Source: Dietzia sp. JS16-p6b (GTDB lineage: Bacteria > Actinomycetota > Actinomycetes > Mycobacteriales > Mycobacteriaceae). From it: a stretch of DNA of 64,000 nt. Location of the stretch: assembly GCF_003052165.1 (NCBI RefSeq), contig NZ_CP024869.1, positions 2,266,001 through 2,330,000 of the forward strand, given 5' to 3'. Under the pieces are notes generated by a model that saw nothing but the letters and a program-made list of their open reading frames with translations, did no database searches and was not told the DNA's origin. Of the stretch, positions 21,097 to 33,839 are shown in pieces (position 1 is the first letter of the stretch; every line of letters begins with the position of its first letter). Position numbers and translations under genes: made by a program.

Positions 21097-22671
21097 GTGG
21101 TGGTAGTGGTTCCGATGGTGACGACGACGAGCTCGGCGGCGTTCGGGGCGCTGCGCGCCGTGCCGGAGGCTCTGGACACGCTGGGCGCCGAGGCGCTCAG
21201 TGAGGTGGCGCGGTCGGCGACGCTGGCGCAGAACCTCGCGGCGGCGACCCGGTTGCGGGCCGCCCATCACCTCGTCGAGGCGATGGCGCGGCTGGATGAG
21301 GCAGCGCACGATGACGGGGCGAGCCCGCGGCCGGCGTTCGCCCGCCTGGACCCGGCCGACCGGGCCCGTGACCACCTGGCCGCGGCGATGTCCCTGACCT
21401 GCTGGCACGCCGCACGCCTGGTCACCGCCGGCACCCAGATCCACACCCGCCTGCCCCTGCTGCGCAAGGCCGTCGACCGGGGCCTGCTGCCCGAACAGCT
21501 GGCCATCGACACCGCCTGCCGGCTGGCCGAGATCCCCGACCAGATGATCGCGGCAGTGGAATCGGAGGTCGTCGGCGCCCTGGCCCGGGACCTGGACGGG
21601 GGCCACCGACCCAGCCGCGCCGCCCTGGACACCGCGGTCGACACAGCGAGAGAACGCCACGATCCCCGGGCCGCCGACGACGCGGTCGACGCCGCGGTCG
21701 AGCAGCGCACCGTCCGGTTTCGCCCCGGCCGCAACGGCATGACCAGCATGTGGGCCCACCTGCCCAGCAGTGACGCCGAGAAGTTGCGCCGCCGCATCGA
21801 GGCCGCCGCCCGCACCGCCTGGCAGGCAGGCCATCCCCGCACCCGCAACCAACTACGCGCCGACGCCCTGTGCGCCCTCGGGGATCCGAACACCGACGAC
21901 ATCTGCACCCCCCTACGCCATACCGACGACTCCGCCACCAGCACTGACACCGCTGGCACAGGCGCCGCCGCCAGCACTGACACCGGCGCCACCGACAGGG
22001 CTGCCGACGGTGCCGCCGGTGCCGCCGGTACGGGTGGGCCGCGGCCCGGGGCGTCCTGGGGCACCGACCACCCCATCCGGATCTCGATCATCGACAGCAT
22101 CGCCCAGGGCCTGCCCAACCGCGTGCAGTTCGTCACCGGCGCCTACGCCAGCGTCGACTGGCTGTGCGAGGAACTCCTCTCCGGCGGCGACGCCACAGTG
22201 CGATTCGAACTGATCGACCCCCAACCCGGAGTGCTCGACCTGCCCGACGCGGTGCTCAAGTACTTCATCACTCCCGCCCTGGCCGAACGGATCCGGCTAC
22301 GCGACGGAACCTGCCGCCACCCCGGGTGCACGGTCGACGCCCACGACTGCGAGATCGACCACGTCATCGCCTTCGACCACCAGCGTCCCGAACTCGGCGG
22401 ACCCACCGCCGAATGGAACCTGATCTGCTTGTGCCGCACGCATCACCGCGAGAAGACCTTCGGCCACTGCGCCTACCGGTCCGGACCCCTGGGCGAACTG
22501 ACCATCATCACCGAAACCGGACACGAACACCGCGCCACCCCACACGGCCCCCTGGCCCAGGCCCGCGACCGGATCCTCGACCACCGATGGCGCCACCACC
22601 TCGACCGCCTCATCACCGACGACGGACACCTCACCAACCCACCCGGCGCCCACCGCCCCCACCCCGCCTGA
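21097..22671 (+). CDS. DUF222/HNH endonuclease, 13E12 repeat family
   Basis: A 524-residue protein with an N-terminal DUF222 region (residues about 10-300), a Thr/Ala/Gly-rich linker (about 280-320), and a C-terminal HNH module: LRDGTCRHPGCTVDAHDCEIDHVIAFDHQRPELGG, then NLICLCRTHHREKTFG. The zinc cysteines and the catalytic DH pair are intact. The GTG at 21097 follows GGGGG; the ATG at 21115 is an alternative start. Members are abundant in mycobacteria and relatives, often in several copies and sometimes as phage integration targets. The SOS-type promoter suggests production on DNA damage. Its substrate is unknown. Confidence 0.88.
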   Translation: MVVVVPMVTTTSSAAFGALRAVPEALDTLGAEALSEVARSATLAQNLAAATRLRAAHHLVEAMARLDEAAHDDGASPRPAFARLDPADRARDHLAAAMSLTCWHAARLVTAGTQIHTRLPLLRKAVDRGLLPEQLAIDTACRLAEIPDQMIAAVESEVVGALARDLDGGHRPSRAALDTAVDTARERHDPRAADDAVDAAVEQRTVRFRPGRNGMTSMWAHLPSSDAEKLRRRIEAAARTAWQAGHPRTRNQLRADALCALGDPNTDDICTPLRHTDDSATSTDTAGTGAAASTDTGATDRAADGAAGAAGTGGPRPGASWGTDHPIRISIIDSIAQGLPNRVQFVTGAYASVDWLCEELLSGGDATVRFELIDPQPGVLDLPDAVLKYFITPALAERIRLRDGTCRHPGCTVDAHDCEIDHVIAFDHQRPELGGPTAEWNLICLCRTHHREKTFGHCAYRSGPLGELTIITETGHEHRATPHGPLAQARDRILDHRWRHHLDRLITDDGHLTNPPGAHRPHPA

Positions 22672-22688
22672 CAGGGTCCTGCTCGGGT

Positions 22689-23714
22689 TCAGCGATGCCA
22701 TGTCGTGGATCGTCTGGCGACCTCGTGGATCGCGTCGATCTCGCGCAATCCCAGTCGCTGCGGCTGCGATGTGAGATATCGCCTGATGCCGCGCCTGGTC
22801 ACCACCGTCACAGCGCCATCTATCGGCTGGTTCTTCACGGTGAATCCCCGGCGCGCTCCCACCACCGCGATCACCCCGGTGACCGGCACCGGGAAGCCGA
22901 CATGCTCCGCCAGCAGACGGGATGCGCGCCTCGCCTCATGCCGACTGTTGCGGATGTACGGAACCCGACTGCCATTGACCATGAAGGTGTCGCCGCCCAC
23001 CCAGATCGAGGCTTTGGGGTGATTCTTGGAGTTCACGGTGAACACGCCGCCCGGTCCGATCACCACGTGTTCGATATCGGCACCCCGCTCCCCCACGCGC
23101 ACGGCGTGCAGGATTCTCCACCGAGCATCCAGTGCGGCCAGCTGATCACCGACCGCCTGCTCACCATCCGCACCGATGCGCCACGCGCGCTCGTCCGTCT
23201 TCGCATCGAGGACCCGGGCGAACATGTGGCGCACCATCCCCTGCGCCTCCCGTTCGGCGAGTGCCCGCTCGCGGGCGGCCGCCCCCGCACGAGTGTCCGA
23301 AAGATCGTGCCACCTCAGCCCGGATCGGGTTGACGGCGCTGTGGTCAGGGGCGGCGCTGTGGCCGGAGGCGGAACCGGGGCAGTCGCCGCGACCGGCCCC
23401 GGCGACTGTGCCAGCGGTGTCGGGGAAAGCGGTGTCGGGAGCGTCGGTGGCGCCACCGGGGTCCCGGCTGGAGACGCCGTCGGCGAAGCGTTCCCCTGAG
23501 GTTGCCGGTTCGGCTCTCGTACCGACCCGCCGTGCCGCCGGGCGCCCATGTGGTCCTCGATCGCCTTGCGCAACAGCGGCAGGTTGCTGAGGTCGTCGGA
23601 GTGGTAGCGGCCGGTGGCGAGATCGAGGTATCCCAGGTCGGTTCCGCCCGGGGTCGCGGCGTAGAGCCTGTCGTGGCCGAAACGGACCCACCTTCGAACG
23701 ATCCACTCGGTCAC
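22689..23714 (-). CDS. NERD (nuclease-related) domain protein
   Basis: A 341-residue protein in three parts: a small N-terminal region (VRFGHDRLYAATPGGTDLGYLDLATGRYHSD), a Pro/Ala/Thr-rich disordered linker (about residues 75-145), and a NERD domain with GADGEQAVGDQLAAL, ADIEHVVIGPGGVFTVNSKNHP and VPYIRNSRHEA. NERD belongs to the PD-(D/E)xK nuclease class; here the acidic residue before the lysine is Asn (NSK), as I recall for many actinobacterial relatives, so activity is doubtful. The GTG at 23714 is chosen for the AGGAGG 4 nt upstream. Confidence 0.82.
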   Translation of the reverse strand: MTEWIVRRWVRFGHDRLYAATPGGTDLGYLDLATGRYHSDDLSNLPLLRKAIEDHMGARRHGGSVREPNRQPQGNASPTASPAGTPVAPPTLPTPLSPTPLAQSPGPVAATAPVPPPATAPPLTTAPSTRSGLRWHDLSDTRAGAAARERALAEREAQGMVRHMFARVLDAKTDERAWRIGADGEQAVGDQLAALDARWRILHAVRVGERGADIEHVVIGPGGVFTVNSKNHPKASIWVGGDTFMVNGSRVPYIRNSRHEARRASRLLAEHVGFPVPVTGVIAVVGARRGFTVKNQPIDGAVTVVTRRGIRRYLTSQPQRLGLREIDAIHEVARRSTTWHR

Positions 23715-23831
23715 GGCGCCTCCTGTTGACAGTCGTCGAATCCTCACACCCCGACGCCCCACCTCGTGGCGGAACGCGCGATTCGTCAAGCCCCGCGAGT
23801 GATACGGAATACTCGGCACCCCCCTGTTGTT

Positions 23832-23841
23832 TGACATGTCA
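23832..23841. promoter_or_regulatory. Perfect palindrome TGACATGTCA upstream of LLM gene
   Basis: A 10-bp perfect palindrome 64 bp before the flavin monooxygenase start, next to TAGGAT, which could be a -10 element. It may be the operator for the two-gene flavin unit; no regulator gene is adjacent. Confidence 0.35.
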
Positions 23842-25868: not shown

Positions 25869-26921
25869 CTAGTTCCGCGCGATCTGGGGCAGCGCCCTGA
25901 TGGGGTCCTCCGGGCCGATGTCGTACGTGCACTCGCCCGGCCTGGGGTCCGGGACGAACGCCCACAGCATGGCCCCTGCCGCACCCATTGCCTCGTAGTC
26001 GTCGATGCGCTCCCCGATGAGGACCGCACGATCCTCGAGGGCCAGGCAGGACCCCGCGGCGATCCCGAGCTCGGTGACCACCAGCGGCTTGTCGGTCTGC
26101 GCGAGGCGCAGTGGCAAGAATCCCGCGTTGTCGTAGTCGTGATACTGGAGCACGTCGACGTACGGGGATTCGGCGATGAGTCTGTACCCATCGGCCACCA
26201 GCCCGCACTGGTCCCCGCCCAGGAGGCCGGCGGTGATGAGTCGGCCGGGGTCGCGGTCCCGGATCAGCTGCCCGACCTCGTCGGTCCACTCACGCAGAAC
26301 CTGCGCGGAGTCCGCCGGGCAGGTCCGGTACTGCCAGTGGCAGTCGGCCGTTCCGCATACCGCGGTCTCGGGCTCGCCGATCGGCTCCCAGGCCGCGATC
26401 ACCGGCGAGCCCGACCACCGTTCGACCGCGGTCGTGACCCAGTCTCGGTAGCTCAGTGGCATCGCCGTGGGTTGTTCCCAGCCGTCCAGGTACCAGTCGC
26501 GGTCCTTGTACTGCTCGTCCTCGCAGGCGCCGTCCTGGCCCACGAGAACTGGGATCACCATCTGATCGTGGCGCTCCGCGGCGGCGAAGACCGCGTCGAT
26601 CGGGGCGAAGTCCAGGGCCCCGGTGAACTTGTTCACGGCGAGCTGTTGAAAGACGTTGAATCGCGTGGCGGCACCGTCCGGAAGTGAACCGAAGTACGCG
26701 TCGAGGTCGACCATCGCGCCGCATCCCCGGTTGACGCTCCAGTCCGTGGCCAGCTGGTAGGCGTTGAGCCCTGTCGGCCACCAGGGTTGGCCGTCGAGGT
26801 GGAGTTCTCCTCCGGAGACCGTCGCGCGATGCGGCTGCGCCTGCGATCGTGAATCCGGCGGCGCCGCGCAGGCCAGCGTCAAGACGAGCACCAGCACCCC
26901 GACGATGGCAGAGTTCTTCAT
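25869..26921 (-). CDS. Secreted GH5-like glycoside hydrolase, possible lipoprotein
   Basis: A 350-residue protein with an N-terminal signal peptide (hydrophobic stretch IVGVLVLVLTLACAA; Cys18 could be lipidated, although the lipobox is imperfect). The rest fits a GH5/GH-A beta-barrel: substrate-entry motif GLNAYQLA, an acid/base region AAWEPIGEPET and a nucleophile region PLVVTELGIAAG. Several cysteines suggest extracellular disulfides. It lies 113 bp behind the membrane glycosyltransferase gene on the same strand and probably trims or releases the polysaccharide made by that locus, as BcsZ does for cellulose. Linkage specificity cannot be told. Confidence 0.75.
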   Translation of the reverse strand: MKNSAIVGVLVLVLTLACAAPPDSRSQAQPHRATVSGGELHLDGQPWWPTGLNAYQLATDWSVNRGCGAMVDLDAYFGSLPDGAATRFNVFQQLAVNKFTGALDFAPIDAVFAAAERHDQMVIPVLVGQDGACEDEQYKDRDWYLDGWEQPTAMPLSYRDWVTTAVERWSGSPVIAAWEPIGEPETAVCGTADCHWQYRTCPADSAQVLREWTDEVGQLIRDRDPGRLITAGLLGGDQCGLVADGYRLIAESPYVDVLQYHDYDNAGFLPLRLAQTDKPLVVTELGIAAGSCLALEDRAVLIGERIDDYEAMGAAGAMLWAFVPDPRPGECTYDIGPEDPIRALPQIARN

Positions 26922-27034
26922 GAGCTGACAATAGTCGACGGTTCCCGGACCACCACCGGATCCCGGCGACGGTGTCCGGCGCGGTTCCGGCCGTCCGCGC
27001 GGCCCTTTCCAGCCGGTGCGCGGCGCGCCGCGGA

Positions 27035-28663
27035 CTACTCGTACACCCGCCACAGCCGCCAGGTCGGGCGGTCACTACCGGAGTTGACCACCTCGAACTC
27101 CAGGCTGCCCAGCTGGGCCCCGTTCTCGTGGACGGTCGGATAGCGGAGGTTGAGCGCGTCGGAGGTGCCACGCCCCTCGGCGGGCACCGTCAGCAGGAAC
27201 TGGACACCGTTGGCCGCCGGGTCGTTGAGGATCTCGACGAAGTCGCGATCCGAGGGGATGACGAACTGTTCGGGCCTGGTGGTGGAGGCGATGATCGGGA
27301 AGCCGTGGACCGTGTCCATGATGACCGCCCCCTCGGGCAGGTCGAGGGAGTCCAGGTAGTCGGCGAGTCGTCGTTCGGTGTCGAACGATGCGACGATCGC
27401 CTCCTGCTGCATCCTGAGCTCCGGGGGCCTGTTCCCCGACTCGGGCAGGATCACCGCGTGTAGCGCGTGCTGCTCCTGGGACAGTGTCGGGGAGGCCATG
27501 GCCACTGCACTGAACGGGACTCCCGCCGCGAGGAGGATGAGCATTCCCGTCGGGACGAGGCGCCCGCCCGCGAGCCGGTCCTGTGTTCTCGCGGTCGCCC
27601 GGGGGCCGGGCCGCCGGGTGGTCATGACACCCCCGCGCGGGACGCAGAACACCGCCAGCACGACGATCAGGGGTATCGCGCTGATATAGAACCGCAGGAA
27701 CGGGAACGTCATGCCGCGCAGGTAGGTGAACACCGCGAAGCCCAGCACCGCCACGAGGACCACCGCGGCCAGCGGTTCAGGATCCCGGCGGCGCACCGAC
27801 AGCACCACGCACACCAGCAGGACCACACCGAGTGCCGGGGCGAGCGCGACGATCTCGGCCGCCGAGAACCCGAGGGCCGAGAGCCCCCCGGTGGAACCCC
27901 CTCCGGACTGCTCGAGGATCGCGGCGTTGCCGTAGCGCGAGGAGAACTGCGCGAGCGCACTGCCGGTCACCAGCCAGCTGGTCGCCGCCCACACGAGGAA
28001 CGCCAGTGCGGTGGGCGCGGCGAGGATCACGCCGTCGAGGATCGCCGTCTCGGTCCTGCGGCTGCGCCGGTATGACACCACCACGACGACGAGGGTTGCA
28101 GCGCCCGAGGCGGCCAGTGCGTCGTAGCGGGCCAGGTAGGACATCCCCAGCGCGAAGCCGGCCACCATCAGATCGTGGACGTCGTCCGTGGTCATCCACC
28201 GGACGAGGCGGCGCACGGCCCACACCACGAAGAAGACGAACAGGGCCTCGCTCATGCCGTTCGCCCCGTAGTACACGATCATCGGATGCAATCCGAAGAC
28301 CAGGGTGACCCCCCAGGTGAACCAGGCCGGGCACTGGCGTTCCCCCGCGAGTGCGTGGATCTGGGTGACCGCGGCCGCCATCGCCGGCGCGCTCACCGCC
28401 ACCGCGGTCAGGCTCCATCTGGTGAGACCCGGGAACCACCCGGACAGACTGACGAGCGGGAGCTGGGCGAGCGCGGTGAGCGGGGTGAAGATGAAGCCGA
28501 TGGCCGCCAGATGCGGGTCTCTGGACAGCAGCGCGGCCCGCGTGTCGGCCACGCGACTCAACGCGTCGCCCTGCAGGTAGTTGGCACCGAGGGAGAGGTA
28601 GAGCCCCACCGCCAGGTACAGCAGCGTGAACGCGCAGAAGACGGCGACGGGACGGGATCTCAC
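27035..28663 (-). CDS. Polytopic membrane glycosyltransferase (GT-C, GT39/ArnT-like)
   Basis: A 542-residue membrane protein with about ten transmembrane helices in residues 5-400 and a soluble C-terminal domain of about 140 residues, probably outside the membrane. The layout, with the short acidic motif GDALSRVADTRA after helix 1, the segment HPMIVYYGANGMSEALFVFF and the loop DALAASGAATL, is that of GT-C enzymes using polyprenyl-phosphate sugars. The GTG start at 28663 has a modest ribosome site. Together with the GT2 protein upstream it likely builds or decorates an exported glycan. Confidence 0.72.
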   Translation of the reverse strand: MRSRPVAVFCAFTLLYLAVGLYLSLGANYLQGDALSRVADTRAALLSRDPHLAAIGFIFTPLTALAQLPLVSLSGWFPGLTRWSLTAVAVSAPAMAAAVTQIHALAGERQCPAWFTWGVTLVFGLHPMIVYYGANGMSEALFVFFVVWAVRRLVRWMTTDDVHDLMVAGFALGMSYLARYDALAASGAATLVVVVVSYRRSRRTETAILDGVILAAPTALAFLVWAATSWLVTGSALAQFSSRYGNAAILEQSGGGSTGGLSALGFSAAEIVALAPALGVVLLVCVVLSVRRRDPEPLAAVVLVAVLGFAVFTYLRGMTFPFLRFYISAIPLIVVLAVFCVPRGGVMTTRRPGPRATARTQDRLAGGRLVPTGMLILLAAGVPFSAVAMASPTLSQEQHALHAVILPESGNRPPELRMQQEAIVASFDTERRLADYLDSLDLPEGAVIMDTVHGFPIIASTTRPEQFVIPSDRDFVEILNDPAANGVQFLLTVPAEGRGTSDALNLRYPTVHENGAQLGSLEFEVVNSGSDRPTWRLWRVYE

Positions 28664-28700
28664 GAGGCCGGTCCCAGCGTGATGCCGACCAGCGGTCGAT

Positions 28701-28736
28701 TCATGACGCCGACCCGCGTCATGACGCCAACCCGTG
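28701..28736. repeat. 18-bp direct repeat at the end of the GT2 gene
   Basis: Two tandem copies (28701-28718 and 28719-28736) with core TCATGACGCC. The downstream copy on the minus strand lies just after the GT2 stop codon and duplicates the gene's last bases, including a second in-line stop. It looks like a small local duplication. Confidence 0.7.
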
Positions 28737-30185
28737 CACGGTCTTCTCCCAGTAGGAGGGGTTGGCGAAGAGCTGATAGGTCCCCTTGATCGCGGCGATC
28801 GACATGAGCACCCAGTAGAGCGGGACGGTCAGGCACGCCCACCACAGCGCCGCGTTGCCGGTCTCCCGGCAGGCGATGAAGTTCGAGTAGAGGATGGTCG
28901 AGTTGCCGAGCACCAGGCAGATCAACGCGGGGAAGTACACGTAGGCGGGGAAGACCTGCTCGATGACGGCCGGTTGGCCGAGTATCCAGGACAGGGTCAC
29001 GAGCCAGAACACCATGTTGAGGCAGGCGATCACGGGGGTCCCGGCCAGCAGGGTCGTGAAGCGGAACATGCTCACCGTGCCGAGGGTGCGCCACAGCGTG
29101 ACCGGATGACGCATGTGCACCAGCCAGGTCTGCAGGTACCCCTTGTACCAGCGAGAACGCTGCCTTATCCAGTTGATCGGGTCAGGGTTGGCCTCCTCCA
29201 GGGTGGTGGAGTCCAGCACGGCCGTCCGGTGTCCGCGGGCGGCGATCCGCACACCCAGGTCGGCGTCCTCGGTGACGTTGTACGGATCCCACGCGCCGAT
29301 CTCGGACAGCACGTCGGCCTTGATGTGGTTCGACGTGCCCCCCAGCGGGATGGGCGAGCTGGACTTCATCAGACCGGGTAGGAGGAAGTTAAACCACAGC
29401 GCGTAGTCGGCGGTGAACCACGCCGTGAGCATGTTCTGCGACCCGTTGTGGAATGCGAGCTTGGCCTGGACGCACACCACCTCGTCGTCGAGATCGGCGA
29501 AGGCCACCGCCACGCGCCGGAGTTGGAGGGGATCGGGGCGGTCCTCGGCGTCGAAGATCGTGATGATCTCCCCGGTGGCGTAGTGCAACGCGTAGTTGCA
29601 CGCCTTGGGCTTGGTGCGGGGATCGGCCGGGGGGATCCGCAGGATCCGGCACACCTCGCCCAGACCGGCGGCCTCCGCCGCGTCGATCGTCACGTCGTCG
29701 TCGGCCTCGAGCAGCAACAACACCTCCAGCTTGTCGGCCGGGTAGTCGATGGAGCTCACGGCGTCGATGAGGTCGCCGATCACCTCCGGCTCGTTGTAGG
29801 CGGGCACCAGCACCGAGTACGTGGGCAGGTCGGAGTCCGGCACGGCCAGGGCGCGGTCGTCCTCCACGTGCAGGATCGACTCCCGCGCCAACCCGCGGCC
29901 GAGGAGGAGGAGCCGGTCGGCGAGCGTGATGAGGTAGACGGCGGTGCTCACCGCCGTCAACGCGATGAGGGTCGGGGTGGTGGCCACGACCAGGGCGAGG
30001 ACCACCACGGCGACCCCGGTGAGTCCTGCCCACTTCTGCCACGGCACGAACGGCACCGCCGCCGAGGCGGACGGGTCGCGTTCGAACAATCCGTGCACGG
30101 CGTCGTGGAGGGCCGCCTCGCTGCGAATGTCGTCCGGGTCGGCGGTCTCGGGGGTCGCCGGCTCCGGATCTACCCGTCCGTCCAC
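28719..30185 (-). CDS. Processive membrane glycosyltransferase, GT2 (BcsA/XagB-like)
   Basis: A 488-residue synthase with two N-terminal helices (about 52-95), a cytoplasmic GT-A domain (about 120-350), and four or so C-terminal helices. All processive GT2 motifs are present: VPAYNEP at 127-133, D212xxD215, T305-E-D and Q342RSRW346. It lacks a PilZ c-di-GMP domain and ends YWEKTVHG, resembling XagB-type enzymes rather than BcsA. It should polymerise a sugar nucleotide and push the chain across the membrane. The GTG start overlaps the upstream gene by 16 nt; the BcsB-like protein in the operon is the likely partner. Confidence 0.88.
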   Translation of the reverse strand: MDGRVDPEPATPETADPDDIRSEAALHDAVHGLFERDPSASAAVPFVPWQKWAGLTGVAVVVLALVVATTPTLIALTAVSTAVYLITLADRLLLLGRGLARESILHVEDDRALAVPDSDLPTYSVLVPAYNEPEVIGDLIDAVSSIDYPADKLEVLLLLEADDDVTIDAAEAAGLGEVCRILRIPPADPRTKPKACNYALHYATGEIITIFDAEDRPDPLQLRRVAVAFADLDDEVVCVQAKLAFHNGSQNMLTAWFTADYALWFNFLLPGLMKSSSPIPLGGTSNHIKADVLSEIGAWDPYNVTEDADLGVRIAARGHRTAVLDSTTLEEANPDPINWIRQRSRWYKGYLQTWLVHMRHPVTLWRTLGTVSMFRFTTLLAGTPVIACLNMVFWLVTLSWILGQPAVIEQVFPAYVYFPALICLVLGNSTILYSNFIACRETGNAALWWACLTVPLYWVLMSIAAIKGTYQLFANPSYWEKTVHGLAS

Positions 30186-31510
30186 TGCGCCTCCACGAGG
30201 TCGGTCGCGAGCTCGGTCAGCATATCGAGATCCTTCTCCTGCGAATTGGTGTCGGTGACCGCACCCGCTCCGCGCAGCGACAGGCTGAGCAGGCGCGAGA
30301 ACGACCGCGAGCCGGGAACGGCCGGCGGGAACTCGGCGTCGAACTCGTGGTTGTCCACGGTGATGAGCGTGACACGTTGGATCCTGTCCCCCGCCCGTGT
30401 CCAGACGAACGACATCACGCTCCAGGTGAGGAGGTTCTCGTCGTCGATCACCGTCCGGTACCGCGCGGAGACGCCCCGGTTGAGTGGTACCGGCCGGGGC
30501 GGACTGATCCGTGCCGAACTGAGATCGAACATCATCTCCAACGGGAACACCTCGAGAACCCCCGGATCACCGACGGTCAACGTCTGCACCGCCGCCACCC
30601 TGGGGCGCAGGAGCTCGTCCCAGTCGGCCCGGACGCGCGTCGCCCTGATCATCTGACGCTCCAGAGTGGCTGACGGCCCGAACATCCGCTCGGCCCACGG
30701 GTAGTCGATCCTGTCGACCTCCTCCCATCCCGCGGGGAGGATCTGACCTGCCCCGTTCAGGGCACCGGGCCCCGGGGACAGTCGTTCATCGATCCCCGCC
30801 GGCAGCGGCGCGAGGGAGAGGAGCACGGCCACGACGATCACCAGAGGTGCGCTGCGCCAGGCCTCACGTGGAGAGACCACCAACGAGGGCAGGGGTGAAC
30901 CACCCGACCGCCGGTCCTCCGCCGCACCGGCCCCGCGGAGGCGGCGGAGTGCCGGCGGCCCGAGGATCGCCAGCGGCCCCACGGACACCACCAGCACCAT
31001 GACCACCGCCTCCGCCCCCCAGCCTCCACCCAAGGCGAACACCGCCAGGCGCAACGCACCCGGAGTCGCGACGGTGAGGAGCAGCCAGGACGGCCAGTAC
31101 CGGAAGGTGCGGCGCGTCCCGAAGAAGAACACCGATCCACCCAGGAGGAACATCCAGGCGGCGATGAAGTCCAGGTGCAACAGCACATAGGTCTCCGTGT
31201 ACCGGGGCAGCACGAGCCACTCGATCATCAGCGCGATGGCCAGGACGATCGTCCCCGCGATCTTGTCGCTCTGCCGGTCGTGGATCGGCAACTCCGGGCG
31301 CCGCCTCAGGTGCAAGGCCACGGCGGTGAGCACGGCGCCGACGGGGGCGGCGAGGAACACCTCGCTTCCGGAGCCTGCCGTCACCTCCCCTGCGATCCTC
31401 GCCCACGTCCGCCAGAACCCGGCGGCGGCGAGCACGACGAGCAGCGCCCACCTCGCGACGTGATCCGCTCCCTCGCCGAGAGCCCCGGGGAGAGCCTGGG
31501 CGGGCTTCAC
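30170..31510 (-). CDS. Polytopic membrane protein of the polysaccharide locus, exosortase-like layout
   Basis: A 446-residue protein with about eight hydrophobic helices (residues 20-240) and a C-terminal extracytoplasmic domain (about 250-446). The helical part, with YVLLHLDFIAAWMFLLGGSVFFFGTRRTFRYWPSWLLLTVATPG, recalls the core of exosortases, and the C-terminal domain recalls their attached domains. However, there is no cysteine anywhere in the chain, so it cannot be an active Cys exosortase. The GTG at 31510 overlaps the stop of the BcsB-like gene (GTGA). Tight coupling to both neighbours suggests it belongs to the synthase or export complex. Function not known. Confidence 0.65.
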   Translation of the reverse strand: MKPAQALPGALGEGADHVARWALLVVLAAAGFWRTWARIAGEVTAGSGSEVFLAAPVGAVLTAVALHLRRRPELPIHDRQSDKIAGTIVLAIALMIEWLVLPRYTETYVLLHLDFIAAWMFLLGGSVFFFGTRRTFRYWPSWLLLTVATPGALRLAVFALGGGWGAEAVVMVLVVSVGPLAILGPPALRRLRGAGAAEDRRSGGSPLPSLVVSPREAWRSAPLVIVVAVLLSLAPLPAGIDERLSPGPGALNGAGQILPAGWEEVDRIDYPWAERMFGPSATLERQMIRATRVRADWDELLRPRVAAVQTLTVGDPGVLEVFPLEMMFDLSSARISPPRPVPLNRGVSARYRTVIDDENLLTWSVMSFVWTRAGDRIQRVTLITVDNHEFDAEFPPAVPGSRSFSRLLSLSLRGAGAVTDTNSQEKDLDMLTELATDLVEAQWTDG

Positions 31511-33426
31511 CGCCGCGGGCGGACCCGACGGCGACGAGAGGCCGCCCAGACGAGCCCGGCGACCGCCGCCCCCGCCAGCGTGATCACCAGACCGACGAGC
31601 AGGGCGGTGCGGACACCGTCGGTTCCCTCCTCCTCCTGACTCGCGTCCCCATCGATCGCCTCGACCGTGGACAGTTCGATCGGCTCCCTGTCCGGCGCGG
31701 TGAACAGGACGTTGCCGGCCAACATCGACCATCGACCCGGCTCGTCGTCCAACCACTCCAGCGTGCGGTCGAGCTCCGCCGAACCCGAACTGGACGAGGC
31801 CACCAGGAGCGCTCGGTCACCGTCCTGGACCACCTGCATCGACGCGAAGTCGACGTCCTCGTAGAACCGCAACGTCGCGGGCTGATCGTCCTGTGCTCCC
31901 ACCACCTCCAGTGTGCGACCGCCGGTCAGAGTCAGGGGCAGGTCGACATCGGACGGGGCGGACCCGGACGTCACCAGTAATCCGGGGACGTTGCCGTCCA
32001 GGAGGGTCTCCGGGCTCACCCATTCGGGCAGCAGCGGCGTGGCGGACAGCGCCTGTAGTTCGGCGAGGATCCGCACGGCCCGCGCGGTGTCCTCCAGCGA
32101 TCCGCTGCCGGTGGCCACCTGCAGACGGGGTAGGAGCGCCTGCGGGAGGGACCCGAACCCAGCCGGCGCCGGTGAGGCGGGTTCGGACAGACGGACCCGG
32201 GTCGCTCCGTCGATGATCAGGGTCAACGGTTGCAGGACTCCACAGGCCGCGCCCGCGCCGGAGGTCTGGAGGGAGACGGTGATGTCGGTGTACCGGTTCA
32301 GCGCACCGGCGGGAACGGTCACCGTGCGGTCGATGATCCCGGACTGATCGGCGGTCCACGACTCCAGCACGGTCTGACCGGCCGACACCACGATCAGCCC
32401 GCTGCGGTCGGACGGTGGCGGCGAATAGGACCCGACCAGATCTACGGTCACGTCCCCGGTCACCTGCCCGAGGCTGGTCTGGTCGAGCCCGAAGCTGGCC
32501 GAGACCGACCCCACCGACCGCGCGGACCGCGAACCCGGTCCGAGCTCGTCGAGGGTCGCCTCGGTCACCAGGGCGCGGGGCGCCGGGAGAGGCGTATCGA
32601 GGGTGGCCGAACCCGCGACGGCCAGCGACCACAGGTCGCTCGTCACCGACCGCATCTGGCGCCCCAGGGCGGCGGAGTCGCCTGTGACCACCACGGTGGG
32701 GACGGCGTCGTCGGTCAGGTCGATCAGGGAATCGTCGGCTTCACGGATCTCCGCCCGACGGGTGAAGGGCGAGGCATCCGGAGCCCTGGACCCCGACGCA
32801 GGGAGCACCTCGATCTCCAGACCCGTCCGCCCGAACCTCGACGACGCGAGGAGCGCCAACTGGGCAGCGGCCTCCGACTCGGCGCGGGTCGGCTCGTCCG
32901 GGAGGTAGATCTCCACGCGTTCCAGGACCGGGGGGACGAAGTCGGCCAGCACCCGGGGCGCCTCGGGCTCGCCGGCGAAGTCCACCTCGGTGTCACGCAG
33001 CTCCAGAGACCGGTCGCCCCAGTCCGGACAGGCCTCCCCGCGGGAGTGCAGGACGGTCCGCAGGGTGAGGTTCAGTACGCCGTTGCGCACCCGCCCGCGA
33101 TCGAGCGGAATGGTGAGACGCTCGAACTCGGCGTCCGATCTCAGTTCCTCCCGGGCCAGTAGCAGGCCACCTGACCACGCCTCGAGATGCCCCCGGTCGA
33201 GGTCCACCGGGAGCTGCACCGTCGTGCTCATCGTCCTGGGACTCAGACCCTCGGGGACCGGGATCGGGACCGCGACCTCGGCGCTCCGATCAGGAAACCG
33301 GAGCACCTGCGCGACCCCGAGTCTGGGTCCGTCTATGACGGTCTGGGCACCGGCCGGGGTCGGGGCGGCGAGGGCGACGGCGAGCAGGAGGCAGGCGGAA
33401 ACACGAAGTGCGGGGGGCGCGGACAC
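31507..33426 (-). CDS. BcsB-like periplasmic/extracytoplasmic synthase subunit
   Basis: A 639-residue exported protein: signal peptide (about residues 1-28, ending PAGAQ), a long beta-rich region, and one C-terminal transmembrane helix (ALLVGLVITLAGAAVAGLVWAA) followed by a basic tail. This is the topology of BcsB, which guides nascent cellulose out of BcsA and contributes a membrane anchor. Blocks such as LPVDLDRGHLEAWSGG and PRVLADFVPPVLERVEIYLPDEPT fit carbohydrate-binding/flavodoxin-like alternation in BcsB. The GTG start at 33426 is the first gene of the polysaccharide operon. Distant homology only; assignment rests on topology and the neighbouring GT2 gene. Confidence 0.68.
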   Translation of the reverse strand: MSAPPALRVSACLLLAVALAAPTPAGAQTVIDGPRLGVAQVLRFPDRSAEVAVPIPVPEGLSPRTMSTTVQLPVDLDRGHLEAWSGGLLLAREELRSDAEFERLTIPLDRGRVRNGVLNLTLRTVLHSRGEACPDWGDRSLELRDTEVDFAGEPEAPRVLADFVPPVLERVEIYLPDEPTRAESEAAAQLALLASSRFGRTGLEIEVLPASGSRAPDASPFTRRAEIREADDSLIDLTDDAVPTVVVTGDSAALGRQMRSVTSDLWSLAVAGSATLDTPLPAPRALVTEATLDELGPGSRSARSVGSVSASFGLDQTSLGQVTGDVTVDLVGSYSPPPSDRSGLIVVSAGQTVLESWTADQSGIIDRTVTVPAGALNRYTDITVSLQTSGAGAACGVLQPLTLIIDGATRVRLSEPASPAPAGFGSLPQALLPRLQVATGSGSLEDTARAVRILAELQALSATPLLPEWVSPETLLDGNVPGLLVTSGSAPSDVDLPLTLTGGRTLEVVGAQDDQPATLRFYEDVDFASMQVVQDGDRALLVASSSSGSAELDRTLEWLDDEPGRWSMLAGNVLFTAPDREPIELSTVEAIDGDASQEEEGTDGVRTALLVGLVITLAGAAVAGLVWAASRRRRVRPRR

Positions 33427-33524: not shown

Positions 33525-33839
33525 TCAGCGAGGGTCGGCGGGTGCGCCCCCCTCGACGCCCGCACGGTCCGTGCCCTCGTCGGCCAGCTGGTCGGGCTCG
33601 GGATGATCGGTGTCGAAGGTCTCGGGCAGGTTCTTGATGTGCTTGTTCATGTTGCGGATCAGCAGCACGGTGGCCACCAGCAGCAGCAGGACCACCGGGA
33701 TCCCGATCGGCGAGGCCTTGCCGAACTCCGGCCCCATCGGGTGGTCGTTGTACCCCGGGGTGCCCGGCGACTGGTGCTGTGCGAAGACCATCACCGCCTG
33801 GTGCGCCAGGATCTGGACGTCCGGTCCCAGAGTGATCAT
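33525..33839 (-). CDS. Small membrane protein, Rv1083-like
   Basis: A 104-residue protein with one transmembrane helix ([22 protein letters not shown]) preceded by [17 protein letters not shown] and followed by [12 protein letters not shown] and an acidic tail. A gene of this kind follows mca in M. tuberculosis and relatives (Rv1083 from memory). Its ATG overlaps the mca stop (ATGA), so the two are co-translated. The conservation with mca suggests a link to mycothiol-dependent detoxification or its membrane location, but the function is unknown. Confidence 0.85.

Follow-up and report, generated by a model that had tools for sequence, protein, structure and literature searches.

In the BcsA-BcsB-BcsZ systems of Escherichia coli and Rhodobacter, cellulose is made by a processive glycosyltransferase of family GT2 together with BcsB, and BcsZ, a hydrolase of family GH8, trims the cellulose outside the cell. 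In Listeria, an operon (pssA-E) with a GT2 and a BcsB-type gene makes an exopolysaccharide (EPS), whose polymer composition was left open by the authors in the part of their report cited here (PMC4125290). According to the cited parts of two further papers, Mycobacterium tuberculosis is devoid of BcsA and BcsB, and cellulose-synthase components are present in M. neoaurum and M. cosmeticum (PMC7952908, PMC6364259). In this study we analysed a five-gene locus of Dietzia sp. JS16-p6b, contained in a stretch of 64,000 nucleotides (referred to as the window; positions 2,266,001 to 2,330,000 of contig NZ_CP024869.1) of a complete genome, a single contig of 3.72 Mb. A preliminary description of this DNA had interpreted the locus as a hybrid polysaccharide synthesis and secretion system, which is well supported by the results presented below (a BcsB-type protein, a GT2, a GT-C type glycosyltransferase, a GH5 hydrolase and the linkage of their genes), although two of its elements had to be changed: the insertion site is narrower, and the polytopic membrane protein of the locus is an exosortase homologue devoid of its core. 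The association of this core-less exosortase with BcsB is the more interesting part of the locus in comparison with the preliminary description. The closest named relatives carrying the locus are other members of Dietzia.

An exosortase homologue without its core, encoded beside BcsB

The polytopic protein of the window gave no match to the exosortase family PF09721. However, its homologue in genome G029 belongs to the true exosortases (PF09721, E 5.2e-18), and with this homologue the window protein aligns pairwise in the region of the IHDRQ motif and again in the C-terminal domain. Comparison of 25 BcsB-linked homologues with five intact exosortases by hhalign gave a clear relationship (99.9%, E 2.7e-33), and a model built from the Dietzia sequences alone finds the intact exosortases of L044 (4.4e-11) and L127 (4e-8). 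One of the BcsB-linked forms (from genome G312) exceeds the PF09721 cut-off by itself, at positions 2-141 of 254 only, i.e. in its N-terminal half. By these sequence criteria the window protein is homologous to exosortases; the Cys-Arg-His core is lacking.

The catalytic triad of exosortases (Cys-Arg-His) was located in the intact homologues. The alignment used comprised 30 rows, i.e. the 25 BcsB-linked and the five intact sequences; the homologue L131 was left out and examined separately, and the split copy of Dietzia genome G013 was excluded, so that seven of the eight Dietzia copies were counted. All three aligned residues are present in each of the five BcsB-less rows and none of them in any of the 25 BcsB-linked rows. 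The window protein (446 aa) contains no Cys at all, a His occurs within five columns of the core in two of the 25 BcsB-linked rows, and in several rows a Cys is found at other positions of this region. The length of the core region falls from 113–115 residues in the intact exosortases to 64–70 in the other BcsB-linked forms and 41–55 in Dietzia.

A search with PF09721 revealed no such protein in the seven Dietzia cassette genomes searched (G013 was outside this search), and no match in 16 of 17 BcsB-type genomes; in the remaining genome, G312, the match was confined to the N-terminal half of the pseudo-exosortase encoded there. The profile of the BcsB-like gene, in turn, gave no match in six genomes, i.e. 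the four that encode intact exosortases, G050 and G035.

Several polar residues are strongly conserved in the BcsB-linked proteins: (i) R304, R334, D386, R413 and D427 (numbering of the window protein) in all 25 rows, and (ii) D298, D356, D357 and H388 in 24 of them, both sets being mostly missing from the intact exosortases, as well as (iii) D78, R103, D114 and R133 of the membrane half, again in all 25. By this conservation the C-terminal domain has not decayed and is under a constraint of its own. The AlphaFold2 model of the polytopic protein, which is of low confidence (predicted local distance difference test score, pLDDT, 37), gave nothing at E <= 0.001 in Foldseek. It is worth mentioning that the matches of the C-terminal domain, obtained with this poor model, lean to PsbP, Mog1, DcrB and LpqN domains, none of them significant. 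The profile of intact exosortases found only five matches among PDB sequences, all with E 0.06 or worse. In the open-licence PMC literature we found no paper joining an exosortase with BcsB, naming a pseudo-exosortase or describing an exosortase without the catalytic cysteine.

Identification of the BcsB homologue

The BcsB-like protein matched no Pfam or NCBIfam family. When its profile was compared by hhalign with an alignment of six canonical BcsB proteins, the match extended over 549 columns (88.8%, E 2.4e-6), and a half-by-half comparison with BcsB was weak but in register. A BcsB encoded by a Geobacillus plasmid bridges the two groups, since it is itself above the PF03170 cut-off and is matched by the hidden Markov model (HMM) of the window family at E 4e-21 (hmmsearch, one-sequence search). 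A search for plasmid relatives of the BcsB-like protein gave no match.

The AlphaFold2 model of the 639-aa protein was built with only three sequences and has a pLDDT of 36, and Foldseek matches of models of such low confidence can be meaningless; the best 20 of its 807 matches were all cellulose-synthase entries, 16 of them titled BcsB (E down to 1.1e-7, 392–505 columns), followed at ranks 21–23 by carbohydrate esterases. The four top-20 chains without BcsB in the title were taken by us as BcsB. In our assessment the 639-aa protein is a divergent homologue of BcsB, as judged from its profile, and a BcsB fold may be presumed, with weak support from the low-confidence model.

Putative glycosyltransferases and hydrolase

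The characteristic motifs of the GT2 were examined in a set of 34 rows: FDAED or YDAED is present in all of them, VTED in 31, and QRSRW or QRTRW in 33, the remaining row having a gap at this position. Among solved structures the profile of the GT2 family matched BcsA best (5ej1_A, E 9.6e-16). The similarity to the CelA model (TIGR03030; E 4.4e-21, 74.6 bits) did not reach the cut-off of 699.1, and the score obtained with TIGR03111, the model of XrtG-associated GT2s (34.5 bits; cut-off 363.95), rules out an XrtG locus. Exosortase G had been offered previously as an analogy; the GT2 does not belong to the XrtG-associated family, while the polytopic protein has itself turned out to be related to exosortases, albeit with the core lost.

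A Pfam scan found no PilZ domain in the GT2, and the Dietzia protein gave no match to MshEN. A GT2 relative of genome G035 (L045:8306-10192) carries an MshEN-type domain, binding cyclic di-GMP (c-di-GMP), fused at its N-terminus. No GGDEF gene was found in six of the seven Dietzia cassette genomes searched, including that of the window (G012 has one), which makes c-di-GMP control unlikely in the window's strain.

The GT-C protein showed only a sub-threshold match to PMT_2 (20.9 bits, E 4.6e-4; cut-off 26.1), and its profile matched no PDB sequence at E <= 1. No Pfam family was matched by the hydrolase. The profile of ten hydrolase relatives, however, matched 14 PDB sequences at E <= 0.001 (including 4awe, E 9.4e-16); thirteen of these bear the names of mannanases or mannosidases and one is named Man5A / mannosyl-oligosaccharide glucosidase. 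Residues E183 and E284 are invariant in all ten relatives, and the motif [GN]EPE as well as a second Glu before an x-G were retained in 18 of 18 sequences. By sequence, this protein is a GH5 hydrolase of the mannanase type, with a putative activity to match.

The initial assignments of these proteins were largely upheld. The 639-residue protein, described as BcsB-like and exported, resembles BcsB by profile (with weak fold support from the pLDDT-36 model) and has a signal peptide by hydropathy. The processive GT2 with D-D-TED-QxxRW motifs and without PilZ has these motifs conserved in all or most rows of the 34-row set. The GT-C identity relies on the sub-threshold PMT_2 match and on the position next to the GT2 in relatives, and the secreted GH5-like hydrolase keeps both presumed catalytic Glu residues in addition to its profile similarity to GH5 mannanases.

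Conservation of the cassette in the order Mycobacteriales

The profile of the BcsB-like protein matched 42 of 397 genomes of the order Mycobacteriales, and that of the polytopic protein 18 of 298. Judging only from the size of the genus, Mycobacterium is probably the one with the most BcsB-like matches. Outside Dietzia, 22 regions around BcsB were inspected: one was taken from G023, and the others came singly from 21 of the remaining 41 matching genomes, chosen across the score range; the genome G045, whose matches were in pieces, was not among them. In 17 of these 22 regions the polytopic gene and the GT2 gene are located beside BcsB, and 16 of the 17 also contain a GT-C gene (the region L119 ends inside the GT2). 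Such linkage excludes that these three genes are associated by chance, and shows that the genes are connected in relatives as well as in the Dietzia blocks. Neither the linkage nor the profile comparison of the 639-residue protein, the two points on which the preliminary description could have failed, contradicted it. The gene order varies to some extent, with the pseudo-exosortase preceding BcsB in L111 and two copies in L115. A GH5 gene is present near the block in six of the 17 linked regions, and in five of those six it lies on the opposite strand. The five other regions (L118, L120, L123, L124 and L042) contain BcsB-like genes with no GT2, GT-C or polytopic/exosortase homologue nearby. 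None of nine genes flanking the block in Dietzia was found near it in 21 regions outside this genus.

In the phylogenetic tree of the GT2s, all 25 sequences from actinobacterial loci of the BcsB type group together in a single clade (100/99), which does not include those of the exosortase-type loci. The Geobacillus GT2, which is encoded beside a BcsB, is also placed outside this clade. The tree has some long outer branches, and its root is not fixed. The simplest reading is a single conversion of the exosortase type into the BcsB type within the order; alternatively, the ancestor might have carried BcsB, as the Geobacillus locus might suggest.

Occurrence among Dietzia strains

The BcsB-like, polytopic and GT2 genes are present or absent together in all 23 Dietzia genomes. 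Eight of these (the window's genome counted) have all three, and among the 15 genomes without the block seven are only 64–88% complete. The five genes are contiguous between the FMN reductase gene and mca in seven of the eight block-bearing genomes; the block of G013 is split across two contigs, both of which end inside the polytopic gene. Eight of the 15 block-less genomes were inspected, and in seven of them the matches to FMN reductase and mca are 346–453 bp apart. In another block-less genome, G011, the luciferase-like/FMN-reductase pair gave no match. The insertion, originally placed between aroG and mca, can thus be narrowed to the interval between FMN reductase and mca, which also contains a small open reading frame (ORF) beside mca, and the other genes between aroG and mca vary separately. 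Among the latter, two genes located between aroG and the luciferase-like (LLM) gene (window 21097-23837) are variably present in Dietzia, both in cassette-bearing and in cassette-less genomes; we take them to be an HNH gene of 13E12-type look and a NERD-type gene.

In a phylogeny built from mca, greA and McrB of 15 genomes, the distribution of the block requires five changes. The block-bearing genome G014 sits on this tree with the block-less G007 and G010 (100/99), whereas its GT2 groups with the GT2s of the window's lineage (100/99). This conflict suggests that the block has been exchanged among Dietzia at a fixed site.

In G002 the BcsB-like gene is split over two frames (L039:10261-12251), and the cassette may therefore be decaying in this genome. 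An additional gene is present there between the GT-C and GH5 genes (L039:4707-5729); by eye it looks like a choloylglycine-hydrolase-type Ntn hydrolase.

Coordinates and gene boundaries

All five ORFs of the preliminary description were found on the minus strand within positions 25869-33426 of the window, in agreement with their single direction (Table 1).

Table 1. Predicted genes of the Dietzia locus (window coordinates)
Predicted product	Length (aa)	Position	Strand	Features and evidence
BcsB-like exported protein	639	31507..33426	-	signal peptide (residues 1-25) and C-terminal transmembrane (TM) anchor (~residues 604-631), both by hydropathy; hhalign, hmmsearch, Foldseek
Pseudo-exosortase, polytopic	446	30170..31510	-	IHDRQ motif in N-terminal TM half and C-terminal domain retained; Cys-Arg-His core gone
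Processive GT2	488	28719..30185	-	FDAED, VTED, QRSRW; 1-2 N-terminal and ~4 C-terminal TM segments; no PilZ or MshEN match
GT-C type polytopic glycosyltransferase	542	27035..28663	-	sub-threshold PMT_2 match; hydropathy; adjoins GT2 in relatives
Exported, possibly lipid-anchored, GH5 mannanase-like hydrolase	350 (from ATG 26921)	25869..26921	-	both presumed catalytic Glu kept

The likely start codon of the polytopic protein is GTG 31508-31510, which overlaps the stop codon of the BcsB-like gene by 4 bp (GTGA). The overlap of these two genes noted earlier is thus real, but the 250 bp originally attributed to it are a start-codon artefact, since the longer frame upstream of this GTG is interrupted by stop codons in G002 and G015. 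Similarity upstream of the GTG in other Dietzia is to be expected, because this stretch also encodes, in a different frame, the C-terminal end of BcsB. For the hydrolase, ATG 26921 is the probable start: in L036 its open frame begins one codon before the equivalent position, although in L041 similarity extends farther upstream. A small membrane-protein-like ORF (window 33525-33839, minus strand; ~104 aa, by eye) is located between mca and the BcsB-like gene and overlaps the mca stop codon. Presumably, it resembles the gene adjoining mca in M. tuberculosis.

Proposed model of the system and alternative explanations

Given the genes observed, their families and linkage, and the loss of the exosortase core in association with BcsB, we consider it probable that the five genes together specify a synthase-dependent exopolysaccharide system, whose product may be mannan-like and in which a dead exosortase has been kept as a membrane subunit. 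By homology to the well-studied cellulose system, the GT2 would polymerise a beta-linked chain from a nucleotide sugar in the cytoplasm and extrude it through its own TM channel, and the BcsB-like protein, held by its C-terminal TM helix, would dock on the outer face and guide the emerging chain. We infer that the GT-C protein would add side-chain sugars on the outer face, using polyprenyl-phosphate donors, and that the former exosortase would act as a membrane subunit, most likely joining GT2, GT-C and BcsB or presenting the chain. The GH5 enzyme may trim the chain outside the cell; since its sequence resembles those of mannanases, the backbone may be a beta-mannan or glucomannan.

A wider scenario is proposed more tentatively, and we would not give it even chances: an exosortase-linked glycan system of Mycobacteriales may have been converted once to a BcsB-dependent exporter by gain of BcsB and loss of the exosortase core, with the dead protein, its C-terminal domain re-modelled, becoming an essential subunit of a machine that makes a mannan-like surface polymer and is of a type not described before. 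If the dead exosortase is indeed kept in a polysaccharide machine, it would illustrate clearly how an enzyme can be diverted to a new role, and it would give a hint of the function of exosortases beside glycosyltransferases. The BcsB-type gene, located mostly in a conserved cassette where inspected, provides concrete candidate genes across the order, and the combination may point to how related bacteria build their surface glycans.

Several observations weigh against this interpretation. Both AlphaFold2 models are of low confidence (pLDDT 36 and 37). With regard to BcsB, (i) PF03170 matched none of 149 Actinomycetota genomes, the E. coli and B. subtilis controls being positive, (ii) the family HMM search was significant for only two of the six canonical BcsB proteins, that of E. 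coli not among them, and (iii) the Foldseek matches to BcsB have TM-scores of only 0.11–0.15. Four genomes account for all five intact exosortases, and three of these genomes are only 86–88% complete; a GT2 together with a GT-C gene was found beside an intact exosortase only in L127 and L128. The homologue in L131, from the BcsB-less genome G050, has lost the Cys but keeps the Arg and His, so core loss can begin without BcsB; this protein (L131:9361-10524) is truncated and lacks the C-terminal domain, GT2, GT-C and GH5 genes are present in the region, and it is a possible intermediate. Moreover, 11 of the 17 linked regions outside Dietzia showed no GH5 gene near the block (one of the 11 is cut short by the end of its contig); together with its location mostly on the opposite strand, this implies that the mannan assignment may not hold generally. 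Finally, the polar residues conserved in the C-terminal domain of the polytopic protein fit an enzyme as well as a scaffold.

The last point leads to an explanation that we consider unlikely but which deserves attention, namely that the exosortase homologue remains enzymatically active through a new active site, located e.g. in the C-terminal domain, and that the glycan chain is its substrate, with the rest of the system unchanged. The polar residues retained in 24–25 of the 25 BcsB-linked rows and mostly missing from intact exosortases would be accounted for, as would the four invariant charged residues of the membrane half, and the homologue in L108 shows a sub-threshold match to Acyl_transf_3 (20.1 bits, cut-off 31). 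However, neither Pfam nor Foldseek (the latter with the poor model) relates the C-terminal domain to a known enzyme, and the membrane core has been reduced in Dietzia to a few tens of residues.

An ordinary BcsA-BcsB cellulose synthase is improbable. The GT2 does match the CelA model and solved BcsA, a BcsB homologue is present, and, as far as the cited parts of the reports go, mycobacterial biofilms contain cellulose, and genes resembling those of cellulose synthase are carried by M. neoaurum and M. cosmeticum (PMC7952908, PMC6364259). Nevertheless, the score of the GT2 is roughly a tenth of the CelA cut-off, it has no PilZ domain, a mannanase-like hydrolase takes the place of the GH8 enzyme, a GT-C protein and an exosortase homologue are additional, and no GGDEF gene was found in the window's genome.

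It is still less probable that the GT2 makes a polyprenyl-phosphate sugar donor, with which the GT-C protein glycosylates proteins or lipids, and that no polymer is formed. Pairs of GT2 and GT-C proteins supplying and using a polyprenyl-phosphate sugar do exist, but the GT2 of the cassette keeps the processive TED and QxxRW motifs and has BcsA as its nearest solved relative, and a BcsB homologue and a mannanase-like hydrolase are encoded with it. A working exosortase protein-sorting system, suggested by the homology to PF09721, is practically ruled out by the loss of the aligned Cys, Arg and His in every BcsB-linked row, by the complete lack of Cys in the 446-aa protein and by the lack of any PF09721 protein in the seven Dietzia cassette genomes searched.

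Comparison with described systems

The Dietzia locus shares with BcsA-BcsB-BcsZ of E. coli and Rhodobacter a processive GT2 with TED and QxxRW motifs, a BcsB homologue with a C-terminal TM anchor and an exported hydrolase. It differs in that PilZ and (in six of the seven cassette genomes searched) a detectable GGDEF gene are missing, the CelA cut-off is by far not reached and PF03170 is not matched, and in the presence of a mannanase-like GH5, a GT-C protein and an exosortase homologue.

The XrtG system of Lactiplantibacillus plantarum likewise combines an exosortase-family membrane protein with two glycosyltransferases and, according to the cited part of the report, includes a CTERM-domain protein (PMC12854382). 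In contrast, the exosortase homologue of Dietzia has lost its core, BcsB is present, and the GT2 is far below the TIGR03111 cut-off. Closer similarity is shown by the actinobacterial exosortase-GT2-GTC-GH5 loci L127 and L128, in which homologues of GT2, GT-C and GH5 are located nearby and the exosortase has the same N- and C-terminal regions. In these loci, however, the exosortase core is intact, and no BcsB-like gene was found in the respective genomes.

On the Geobacillus stearothermophilus plasmid pEF60063-1 (CP128455) the genes of BcsB, GT2 and GT39 are consecutive (L142:3150-9887), and the GT2 is 42.8% identical to that of Dietzia. Unlike in Dietzia, the 15.4 kb seen contain no annotated exosortase homologue or GH5, the gene of a sugar-phosphate nucleotidyltransferase lies upstream, and the GT2, which falls outside the actinobacterial BcsB clade, has a sub-threshold match to MshEN. 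The plasmid has been typed as conjugative.

The pssA-E operon of Listeria differs from the Dietzia locus by its c-di-GMP receptor, PssE, and an exosortase homologue is not mentioned in the part of the account cited (PMC4125290). As described there, it nevertheless combines, in a Gram-positive bacterium, a GT2 (PssC) with a BcsB orthologue (PssD), and it thereby provides a precedent for the pairing of these two proteins found in Dietzia (PMC4125290).

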